DNA of 64,000 bases from the NCBI GenBank assembly GCA_963678705.1, contig OY783219.1, positions 4,402,001-4,466,000 on the forward strand, given 5' to 3'. Source of the stretch: Panorpa germanica (taxonomy: Eukaryota > Arthropoda > Insecta > Mecoptera > Panorpidae). Shown piece by piece: positions 10,101 to 60,655 of the stretch. How positions within the stretch are numbered: the stretch's first letter is position 1; each line of letters begins with the position of its first letter. The notes beneath the pieces are model-generated. The model saw only the letters and a program-made list of their open reading frames with translations. It was not told the origin of the DNA and searched no databases. Both the position numbers and the translations under genes were made by a program.

Positions 10101-13100
10101 CGTCGTTATTAAATAATTAATTGCCTTCTTTAGAAAGAAAGGTTGAAAGCATGAAAGTCTAAAAGTCTGTAAGTCTTCACGATCTAAAACAGACTGCGTT
10201 AATGAAACTGAACAAAGGAAGAAAAGAAACCAAAGACCGTAAATGAGAAAATAAATAGAGATAGACTTATATAATATATTATAAGTGTGAAAGAGATAGC
10301 AATAGTTTAAATCACAAAATATAAATTAGTTATTTTGTTGTAATTAAAAATCACTCGAGGATTTTACTTGACTTTGCTTGATTTTATGTAATTGAAATTT
10401 ATATATGAAAGGAGATTGCGTTTGTTCCGGTATCAATTTGAAGAAACTCGTTAAATTGAGTGATTAAAGCTCTTTTTTATGTTTTGGCGGGTGTTGGAGG
10501 GAATGGGGGGGAGTTATCTGGCTGTTGTACAATAATGTGTCAAAGTTTAAGACGACCTCTTTTTTTTATATAGTATCTCGGGCTTCCTATGCACGTAGCC
10601 TTTTATCGCCCCTAATATTGTTCTGCTTCTTCTTATACGTTATATCCAGACAACAAGAATGATCTATTCATGGTTACTGCACTTATAAATTTCGGTTTCT
10701 CAATCAAAGAGGGGGTGTTAACAGGAAGCGTCTGCGAAGTCTGTAGCACCGCCCTTTGGAGTCCATTTCTTGCCATTGCTGTATTTTTACATTGCCACAG
10801 AATGTGATCAGGATCTGCTGGATCACCACATTCGCATTTAGAGTTTGGAATGATTTTGTTTCTTGCTAGATGTTTCGGAGCTCCAGTATGATTCATTCTT
10901 AGTCTTGAGGTCATTGTTATTAATCTGTTAATTTGGCAAACCATGGCTTACGTCTCAGTATTGATTGTATTTTATAAAATTCTTTACCTTTATCAGAATT
11001 ATCCCACTTGTCTTGCCAATTTTTCATTTCATTTTTTCTAAAATCCTGCATTTTTCCAAAAAACAAAAATAAATTCCATAAAAAGGTGTTGTTAATTGAA
11101 TCATACGAGTGTATAAGACATACATTGATCGCACAGTTCATTAAATACATTAATTCTTTATAAAAGAACACCCAAAAATAATTTCTTGCTTAAGATATAG
11201 CTGTAAAAGTTCCTTAAGTCCCTTAAATTTATTACAGAAAATAACTAAGGTCAGCTAAACCGTTTAATGACCAACGACTGAGGGTCAAATAACAGGGCAT
11301 TGTATTTACAGGACGATACACCGCTTGTCTTGAATTGCAGACGATCGTTTACTATTCTAAGAGCTTCACCGCCCTTATCTTCCACCCCACTGCCCTGCCG
11401 CGCTGGACGACCTTCGTCTGCGTCCCCCCTCCTCCCCACAAAGTTTCAACAAAGTTGCGGATTGATGATCCCACTGATGTAATTACATTAATCCACCATT
11501 GTACGGTTTTGTGTGGCAATATTTAAATTAAAATAAATATATTTTATTTACACTTATTAACCATGGGTTGAATAGTGCGACACCTCCGTTGCCACCCTTG
11601 CAGCACGGCTGGCATTTCTTAAGAATTAGTTTAAATGTATAAGGTGCGTTTCCATGTTTAATATTATACCAGACTTAAATATGCGAACGGATTTACATTT
11701 TGTAGCGGTAAAAGGACGAGATTATAATACCGGTACCAAACGATACTATTTTCCAACGTTAGACGCATCGTGTGATCGACGCTGAAACTAAATATGTCCA
11801 ATGTTCACGTTGTCGTCTTTTATCCCGCGTCATAAAAGATTTTTCTACCCCCACTAACACACTTGATCCACATGTCATGCACTGTTGCACGAATTGTACA
11901 ACAAATTAAGGTTTTATACTTGAAAGTTTTTGTTAAACAGTGTCAGTGTCAATAATATCAACAAATAAATAAAATAAATAAATCATTCGGATCAAACATT
12001 CGTTCCACCGTGTAGCAGGAAACTTGCCTTGTCAATTTTCCAATATTTACTCACACCGCATCGTTTTGTACCGGCTTAAAAATAAAAAGATTATACTGGA
12101 TACTGAGCAGGTTCTCGACCCTTCTGCACGAGGTCACATTCAAAATCACAATTCTTTTAAAAGTACCGCCGAAGGAGTACCGACATTTTTGTTTTATAAA
12201 AATACTAACTAGAATTTTTAGAAATAGCATAAGTAAGGGCTTTATTAGTGTCGCACTGGTCTGTACGTTAAAAGTACAACACATTTAGTACACTCATGTC
12301 TAAATAATGTCATTTTATGCTTATAAATATATAAATATTGGATGTCATCAATGTGTACGACACGTAAGGCTATGAGTAGTTACGTAGTCTTTTTAAAATA
12401 TTAATTTTTGACAAGTTGAAACTACTTAAATTTATCAAACTCTGGTTCACACTTATTTAAGTCGGTTGGTAGCTTAACTACATGCAAATAACTGTGATAT
12501 AAATATCTCAATGCAAACCTAGCTAATTCATTTCGTAAAAGTTTAATACGCTCATGTCTGAAGTGAGCATAATCTGCTTCGTAGAAACAAAAACACTGCA
12601 CGATGACTACGCGCGTCGTAGATGGTGAGAAAGGGGGTGTGTGGGTGTGTGAAGGCCAGTTGGAAGGAGTGGGGGGAGGGTAGATTGAACGCCATATGAG
12701 TTAAAGCGTAGGCGACCGGGCTGAACTGTCAATCAAAATAAAATTATGCGTTCATGTAGATTACCGTTTCAATTTATTTTGATTTTGTATGAAACAAATG
12801 GTTATTTTAGTGTAGGTAATAAAAATTTGTCTTATTATAGGTGAAATTACGAGAGTTCGGCTGTGATTCATACTTAAAATTGGTTGTGTTGTATAAATCT
12901 ACCATACATTGAAATAATACTGTCTTACTCCTTTTTTATAATGTATTTAGGAACGAATGAGATAAATATTTATATAGTTCAAATTACGAGAGTTCGGCGG
13001 CGACTCATACTTAAAACAAGTTGTGGGGTATAAACTGTCGATATAACTAAAAACCACTGACTCACTTATTTTTCTATAATGTATATAGAAACGAATAATA

Positions 13101-33805: not shown

Positions 33806-34110
33806 ACTACAGCAATATAGATAGCACAAGCTACTTATCTAATATTTGAACCAACCATAGTTGATTCAGGTTTTATAATATAGATGGCCATAGCTGTTTA
33901 GCTGAGATCACAACCTTGCATTTCATTGATTCCGGTTTTATAATGTAGATGGTAGTGACTGTTTATCCAAGCTCCCAACCTTTTACCGTTTAGTTTCTCT
34001 TTTATAATTTAGATGACGCTGTATATCTATCCAATATCACAACCTTTTACTATTTAGTTCCTGTTTTATAATTTAGATGGTGATATTTGCCTTACTCAAG
34101 CTCACAATGA
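33806..34110. repeat. Minisatellite, about five units of 64-65 bp
   Basis: Units begin at about 33806, 33871, 33936, 34000 and 34064 with TTTTATAATNTAGATGG, followed by CTGTTTA or CTGTATA and then TCACAACCTT and TAGTT. Spacing is 65, 65, 64 and 64 bases. Units differ by several substitutions, so the array is old. It lies between the polyadenylation-like site and the hairpin element. Confidence 0.8.
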
Positions 34111-34136
34111 TAGCAATGGTGGGAGGTAATTATTTA

Positions 34137-34484
34137 GAGTATATAACAGACGGAGTACCGTGCAGAGCTTCAGTGTAGCGTCAGCTACTCCAGTGAAAGG
34201 AGGGGTAGGCGTGCCGTTTTTTTTACAAATGCGTATAAAGAATGTTGAATAAATTTGTAAAGCCAGCCTACCGGCTGGCTTTACAAATTTATAGGAAGGG
34301 GCCGGAGGCCCCTTCCTGCATTCGCGGAGCGAATGCAAAAACGTTCCTATTGTACGCGCGAAGCGCGTACAATAAAACCGGGGCTTTAGCCCCGGTTTAA
34401 AATATATAGTAAATGCTAGAAGGGACCGAAGGTCCCTTCTAGCATTTACTATATATTTACCTCGTCTGACAATATTGATACTCT
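34137..34484. mobile_element. TIR-bounded insert carrying a chain of six perfect hairpins
   Basis: The outer ends AGAGTATATAACAGACGGAG (34137-34156) and, reverse-complemented from 34461-34484, AGAGTAT..CAGACGAG form an imperfect terminal repeat. Inside, from 34249, six perfect inverted repeats run almost without gaps: 34249-34292 (20 bp stem, TACC loop); 34293-34317 (11 bp, GGA); 34317-34337 (9 bp, GGA); 34348-34374 (12 bp, GAA); 34375-34398 (10-11 bp, TTTA or TT); 34400-34458 (28 bp, GAA). Stem sequences are unrelated and GC-rich at the tips. About 90 bp left of the hairpins is GC-richer with a GGAGTA/TACTCC pair. No transposase. I do not recognise the element; transferred organelle or bacterial DNA is an alternative. 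Confidence 0.65.
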
Positions 34485-34545
34485 ATATGTCTATACATAT
34501 ATATATACAGTTACATCGGATAAATACAAGTTTTAATTTTTAACC

Positions 34546-34800
34546 AGCATGAGCCACCGTGGCCCAGCCGGTAGCGTCGCCGCCTCGTAATCGTACGGTC
34601 CCGGGATCGAAACCCAGCCCCGCCGAATAAAAAACGTAACAAAAATCTCCCGCCATGACCAACCCCCCCCCCCCAGCCCTGACCCCACAAACTCATATAC
34701 AGCGCGACGAACCCTGACCGCCCCCCCCTCTCTACGGAAAAAAACCCCTCCTATCCTACAAAAAAGAAGCTACATTTTGCAATTTTTTTTATTAATTTTT
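34546..34800 (+). mobile_element. tRNA-derived SINE
   Basis: The head GAGCCACCGTGGCCCAGCCG has an A-box-like TGGCCCAGCCGG (34560-34571). About 40 bases on is a B-box-like GGGATCGAAACCC (34603-34615), the RNA polymerase III promoter pair of a tRNA gene. Between them, CTCGTAATC looks like a degraded anticodon arm. The body is C-rich with runs of 12 and 8 C, followed by A- and T-rich sequence. I see no intact cloverleaf, so a functional tRNA is unlikely. It starts about 60 bp beyond the hairpin insert. Confidence 0.65.

Positions 34801-55283: not shown

Positions 55284-60655
<5,372 letters not shown>

Follow-up and report, generated by a model that had tools for sequence, protein, structure and literature searches.

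Results

A block among interrupted genes of animal type

The window, by which we mean the whole stretch of 64,000 nucleotides analysed here, holds genes of the HSP70, Ras and PAP_assoc families, all of them interrupted and of animal type, with long introns. Ten of its 34 listed frames were compared with Pfam, and six of the ten match one of these three families; we take the genes to be those of an insect-like animal, encoding an HSP110, an RGK-type GTPase and a Trf4-like protein. Three of the tested frames, at 57627-60655, match the HSP70 family and are probably exons of the HSP110 gene. Another frame, on the minus strand at 10633-10947, carries a cysteine/histidine pattern without a Pfam match at E 0.01, and is presumably comparable to the C-terminal end of a non-LTR retrotransposon. 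No N bases are present in the window, and no tRNA was found in it under the bacterial code.

The block that concerns us (34249-34458, 210 bases) lies in what looks, from the make of its surroundings, like non-coding animal nuclear DNA. Just to its left is a degenerate tandem array with a period of 64-65 bases (33861-34107). To its right, 34548-34640 has the look of a tRNA-derived SINE head, an assignment that we assume from A-box- and B-box-like words, and is followed by a C-rich, strongly C-skewed tail that runs to about 34735; the 11-mer CTACCGGCTGG is common to the centre of the first hairpin, H1, and the reverse complement of this SINE-like stretch. GC content is raised in the block, but on both flanks too, and the flanks fold no better than their shuffles. 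A weak inverted pair, TAGAGTAT..CAGACG (34132-34152 and 34463-34488), surrounds the chain of hairpins, and the RNA fold of the plus strand closes on this pair. As terminal inverted repeats, the flanks are unconvincing: their best alignment was matched by 99 of 500 shuffles and is not significant, and on this ground we set aside a TIR transposon or MITE.

Six perfect hairpins end to end

Six perfect hairpins in close succession take up nearly the whole block (Table 1). Besides the spacer that follows H3, 10 nt long, the only gap is a single A between H5 and H6, and H2 and H3 have one base, 34317, in common. The preliminary description had announced six perfect, adjoining inverted repeats with stems of 20, 11, 9, 12, 10-11 and 28 bp, and both a hairpin scan and a check by script bear this out: with H3 counted as 8 bp and H5 as 10 bp, the 89 stem pairs contain no mismatch. 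In the absence of selection, and if changes are taken to arise at 1e-8 to 2e-9 per site per year, such perfection bounds the age of the stems at roughly 1.7-8.4 million years.

Table 1. Hairpins and spacer of the block, in window coordinates.
Feature	Positions	Strand	Description
H1	34249-34292	+	Perfect; 20-bp stem, loop TACC; base AT-rich, top GC-rich
H2	34293-34317	+	Perfect; 11-bp stem, loop GGA; resembles the core of H6
H3	34317/18-34336/37	+	Perfect; 9-bp stem (8 bp if base 34317 is assigned to H2), loop GGA
Spacer AAAACGTTCC	34338-34347	+	The only real gap of the chain
H4	34348-34374	+	Perfect; 12-bp stem, loop GAA, centre GCGAAGC
H5	34375-34398	+	Perfect; stem of 10 bp (loop TTTA) or 11 bp (loop TT)
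H6	34400-34458	+	Perfect; 28-bp stem, loop GAA, centre CCGAAGG

The chain is far beyond chance. When 3000 first-order Markov copies of the block were scanned for stems of at least 8 bp with loops of 3-6 nt, 2886 contained no hairpin, 99 yielded a single hit and 15 yielded two hits, which may be two registers of one hairpin; the real block holds six. Folded as DNA, positions 34240-34470 reach -98.0 kcal/mol on the plus strand and -96.6 kcal/mol on the minus strand (z -20.8 for each), and none of 200 shuffles folds as well on either strand. Folding of the block as RNA is also very strong. Nothing comparable turned up in the rest of the window, whose 16 other hairpins with stems of at least 9 bp have at most four GC per 9-bp arm and where one pair of neighbouring hairpins was seen.

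A seven-pair helix (one pair of it G-T) between 34240-34246 and 34340-34346 would enclose H1-H3, as if these may lie inside an older hairpin; the DNA fold of the plus strand includes this additional 7-bp outer helix and that of the minus strand does not. Through the whole chain runs a stop-free frame of 126 codons on the minus strand (34102-34482), which has no Pfam match at E 0.01 and is probably due to chance.

One style of loop and a gradient of GC

Loops and closing pairs in the block are markedly uniform against those of the 56 other hairpins of the window with 3-nt loops (stems of at least 6 bp, read on the plus strand). All six stems are closed by a C-G pair, as against 6 of the 56, and all four triloops of the block are GNA on the plus strand, as against one of the 56. 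Loops and closing pairs such as those of d(GCGAAGC) stabilise hairpins of single-stranded DNA, and the claim that the loops are of this stabilising sort holds, with C-GNA-G in every triloop and C-G closure throughout. It had further been proposed that stability is biased towards one strand. All four GNA loops are indeed on the plus strand, but the energy model puts the difference between the strands at 1.4 kcal/mol, which is barely a bias.

The stems themselves are graded, with GC pairs close to the loop and AT pairs further out. GC accounts for 33 of the 42 pairs at stem positions 1-7 from the loop and for 9 of the 47 beyond, a distribution that none of 20,000 permutations equals; when the first three pairs are kept constant, GC is still enriched at positions 4-7 (p = 0.0009).

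H2 resembles the core of H6

That the stem sequences are unrelated to one another, as the preliminary description had it, is too strong a statement. H2 together with the start of H3 agrees with the core of H6 in 23 of 28 ungapped bases, a likeness attained by 28 of 4000 palindromic null chains (0.007), while a test on the arms alone gives 0.16 and is not significant. On account of this likeness, a single pair that was found after looking, the stems would not all be independent. The differences between H2 and H6 include a change from G-C to A-T on both sides of the stem, and one from GGA to GAA in the loop. The compensated pair is the sole hint, read from two sequences, that structure rather than sequence may have been kept. 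No related copy of the hairpins was found elsewhere in the 64-kb window.

Searches for relatives

Phages, plasmids and E. coli genomes yielded no blastn match to the block at E values up to 1, and neither exact nor degenerate patterns of the block matched viral contigs. A peptide pattern taken through the stop-free reverse frame was searched in the genome contigs of 84,980 species and in viral contigs, where 69 and 5 stretches matched, respectively; none was confirmed as a relative. The core pattern of H2/H6, searched in genome contigs, matched once in each of three bacteria, with no chain at any of these sites, and the whole block gave weak matches (E up to 1) in two of those three genomes.

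One of the two is from Aureimonas, where a lone perfect hairpin of 18 bp with the loop GGA (locus L004, 1501-1523) contains 23 of 23 bases of H2. Its E value of 1.3e-4 is not independent evidence, because the genome had been picked by the core pattern. What the match does tell us is that bacteria carry single hairpins of such make; the likeness to H2 is either fortuitous or due to a make that is common among bacterial hairpins. The Oscillibacter genome matches the block at E 0.004 and 0.65, in stretches that are, by eye, not hairpin chains.

We also scanned 254 loci (2.28 Mb) for hairpins with stems of at least 8 bp and loops of 3-5 nt. There were 407 hairpins and ten chains of two, and no chain of at least three. 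The scan took in 10 loci (0.04 Mb) from the bacterial searches, 233 viral loci (2.02 Mb), all of which had been chosen for three GNA cores among the matches listed, as well as a 220-kb part of a single prokaryote genome (33% GC) from the class to which the Aureimonas genome belongs. One viral locus with three GNA cores (L070) is, by eye, a direct repeat and not a set of hairpins. The Pfam family PF01617 proved unspecific as a Rickettsiales-like marker, matching 33 of 96 genomes. A bacterial, plasmid or phage origin had been considered for the chain; the searches of phages, plasmids, E. coli, viral contigs and prokaryotes lend it no support, and all that they offer is the lone Aureimonas hairpin with its H2 core.

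No Rfam family matches the window at the curated threshold. With the threshold lifted, 23 matches appear near the block, all of them below their cut-offs, the nearest being ar9 at 33.2 of 45 bits; a microRNA or another Rfam RNA is rejected on this basis. A microRNA cluster is in any case unlikely, since microRNA hairpins need loops larger than 3-4 nt. Nor did the titles and abstract openings listed by searches of the literature describe such a hairpin chain in animal nuclear DNA, and the accessible portions of PMC8700879 and PMC11572364 hold nothing decisive on it.

Discussion

A cluster made by fold-back copying?

The reading that we favour, tentatively and at rather less than an even chance, is that the block is a cluster of short hairpin elements that arose by fold-back copying and now lies inert in the nucleus. 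It would work in the manner of the repetitive hairpin-forming elements (RHEs, SIRs) that some mitochondrial and plastid genomes carry. In such a process a GC-clamped mini-hairpin, turning on C-GNA-G (or C-TTTA-G), would let a single strand fold back on itself, and a polymerase would extend the strand's 3' end outward on its own template, building the perfect, AT-rich outer stem until copying stopped at the base of an adjacent hairpin that had already folded. It is this halt at the neighbouring hairpin that would account for the near-zero spacers. Some units could then have been recopied as units, as H2 and H6 suggest, and the finished cluster would have been joined into the chromosome, perhaps from a hairpin-rich, organelle-like replicon or perhaps after forming in the nucleus, to lie there inert. 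The preliminary description had invoked a single-stranded DNA intermediate, among other possibilities; an origin through one is plausible, and an organelle-type source for the chain fits in kind. In favour of the reading are the adjoining, perfect stems with their short loops, the GC gradient, the likeness of H2 to H6, and the resemblances to organellar hairpins and to fold-back products that are set out below. Against it, no related copy lies elsewhere in the 64 kb, RHE-like repeats are scarcely recorded from Bilateria beyond the control region, sponge elements conserve their stems and vary their loops, the opposite of this chain (PMC2800124), and nuclear palindromes of Volvox often have mismatched stems (PMC2670323). 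The likeness of H2 to H6 is also modest, and the loops are smaller than those of the repair studies. In the Pol theta work, moreover, hairpins that had been extended completely concealed their 3' ends from the following step (PMC11292364), which makes it harder for a next hairpin to bud.

Could the block instead be the scar of one repair event? Pol theta, Pol delta or a similar polymerase would have healed a nuclear break by repeated fold-back synthesis at its 3' ends, with no mobile element involved. We think this unlikely, and worth a serious hearing. Stems of 8-28 bp fall within the range given for fold-back in the accessible text of one study, mostly 5-34 bp (PMC11724301), templated insertions are, in the part of another that is available, reportedly the commonest products of theta-mediated end joining in Drosophila (PMC11292364), and perfect stems would fit a young event. 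The flanks, as a source of template, give a divided answer. The centre of H1 shares 11 bases with 34564-34574, the H4/H5 junction shares 10 with 33932-33941, and within 1000 bases the block and its flanks share 13 exact matches of at least 9 bases, against a null mean of 5.0 and a count reached by 30 of 1000 nulls. However, the other eight flank measures, taken over 0.5, 1 and 2 kb, were reached by 95-389 of 1000 nulls and reveal no clear excess; the longest match and the score, for instance, were reached by 109 and 95 nulls within 500 bases, by 226 and 104 within 1000, and by 389 and 231 within 2000. Moreover, six successive events, the GC gradient and the likeness of H2 to H6 are not expected of a repair scar.

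A different kind of explanation is that the structure has been selected: the block would be a functional scaffold of single-stranded DNA or RNA, such as an origin, a recombination site or the end of a mobile element, and its stems would be perfect through selection. Six perfect stems, all closed by C-G, with GNA in all four triloops on one strand and with very strong folding as both DNA and RNA, are what such a scaffold could look like, and the weak inverted pair around the chain could even mark the ends of an element. Against this, 99 of 500 shuffles align as well as the inverted pair does, the flanks fold no better than shuffles, no Rfam family reaches threshold (the 23 matches near the block all being sub-threshold), and no recognisable partner gene adjoins the block among the 10 of 34 listed frames compared with Pfam. 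We consider selection for structure quite improbable.

A bolder form of the fold-back reading may also be considered, which we regard as a long shot, namely that these are self-priming hairpin elements of animal nuclear DNA. C-GNA-G mini-hairpins would seed the fold-back, each unit would rebuild its perfect stem and bud the next, and the cluster would grow without any protein of its own; H2 and H6 would then represent two generations of the same unit.

More doubtful again is that foreign DNA, from a symbiont, an organelle or elsewhere, was captured whole, its hairpins being ordinary features of the donor, terminator-like or RHE. GC-rich tops on AT-rich bases do resemble the hairpins of AT-rich bacterial and organellar genomes, and the lone perfect 18-bp hairpin of Aureimonas, with its 23 of 23 H2 bases, is a concrete instance. 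However, the Aureimonas locus has no chain, the Oscillibacter match at E 0.004 is by eye not a hairpin chain, no chain of at least three was found in the 254 loci (2.28 Mb), and the searches gave neither a blastn match (phages, plasmids, E. coli), nor a confirmed relative by peptide pattern, nor an exact pattern in viral contigs. Least probable of all is an artefact of assembly or library, a chimeric or gap-filled sequence absent from the organism, for while the chain is isolated within the window and hairpin DNA readily undergoes polymerase fold-back when amplified, the window contains no N, and to our knowledge neither a likeness of the H2/H6 type nor a GC gradient, both present here, is a recognised mark of library chimeras.

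What would follow? Should the cluster of hairpin elements that we favour be real and occur repeatedly in the genome, animal nuclei would have their own counterpart of organellar hairpin elements, whose mode of spread the cited papers, in their accessible parts, call unknown. With its near-zero spacers, the chain would then preserve a record of fold-back synthesis, one that can be tested with purified polymerases. As a single repair scar, on the other hand, the block would stand as an extreme case of iterated stem-loop synthesis.

Comparison with known systems

Fold-back repair shows how such stems can, in principle, be made. As far as the available text of these studies goes, human Pol theta carries out stem-loop synthesis in vitro from two paired 3' bases, loops of 6 nt being cited there as most favourable in Drosophila (PMC11292364), and yeast breaks gain inverted duplications by fold-back, mostly of 5-34 bp, with a local fold-back loop of 41 nt (PMC11724301). 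The block is like these insertions in consisting of perfect inverted copies, drawn from one strand, whose 8-28 bp lie within that range; it differs in that the insertions usually have one inversion per junction, a template in the flank or at one distant site, and larger loops, whereas here six inversions stand in a row with no clear local template (PMC11292364, PMC11724301).

In its anatomy the block is like the hairpin families of some organelles. RHEs and SIRs are short hairpins with short loops, commonly but not obligatorily tandem or nested, and sit in organelle genomes. The block has short hairpins with short loops, and they stand in tandem, perhaps nested as well, as the outer 7-bp helix may enclose H1-H3; its setting is not an organelle genome, the window holding interrupted HSP70-family, Ras-family and PAP_assoc genes. 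RHEs are, besides, defined by dispersed related copies. Because the block is not organellar and dispersed copies of it are not shown, we class it not as an RHE but only as working alike.

Among the RHEs of sponge mitochondria, the accessible portion of the source describes perfect hairpins, multiple hairpins in tandem, types rich in GC, and a pair of types separated by few complementary substitutions (PMC2800124). In perfection, tandem and multiple arrangement, GC-richness and perhaps types set apart by complementary substitutions, the block is like them. Sponge stems are conserved and loops variable, however, several types having loops of 5-7 nt, and these elements are organellar, with many dispersed copies; the block is one nuclear cluster in which the stems differ and the 3-4 nt loops are of one style (PMC2800124). 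According to the same portion, Bilateria have hardly any known RHE-like repeats outside the control region (PMC2800124), although, in the available text of another study, Drosophila is among the mitogenomes with a palindrome type present more than ten times (PMC7813641).

That study also describes, in the text available, a GC-rich family of placozoan mitochondria, GGVBCC-(N)3-GGVBCC, of which a single type can exceed 150 copies in an organelle (PMC7813641). A GC-rich stem adjoining a 3-nt loop is common to this family and the block, and by eye the core of H2 fits the formula, whereas the other five hairpins do not. The long introns of the window would argue against a placozoan as host.

The palindromes of the organelles of the green alga Volvox have, in the accessible part of their description, stems of 4-37 nt and loops usually of 3-5 nt, often TTTA, and frequently lie inserted within each other (PMC2670323). 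They form families of more than 50% identity with TAAA/TTTA loops, in contrast to the GNA loops of the block, and many of their nuclear copies have mismatched stems, where those of the block are perfect. Short loops, the TTTA that recurs in H5, and the very existence of copies in the nucleus are nonetheless what the two have in common (PMC2670323).
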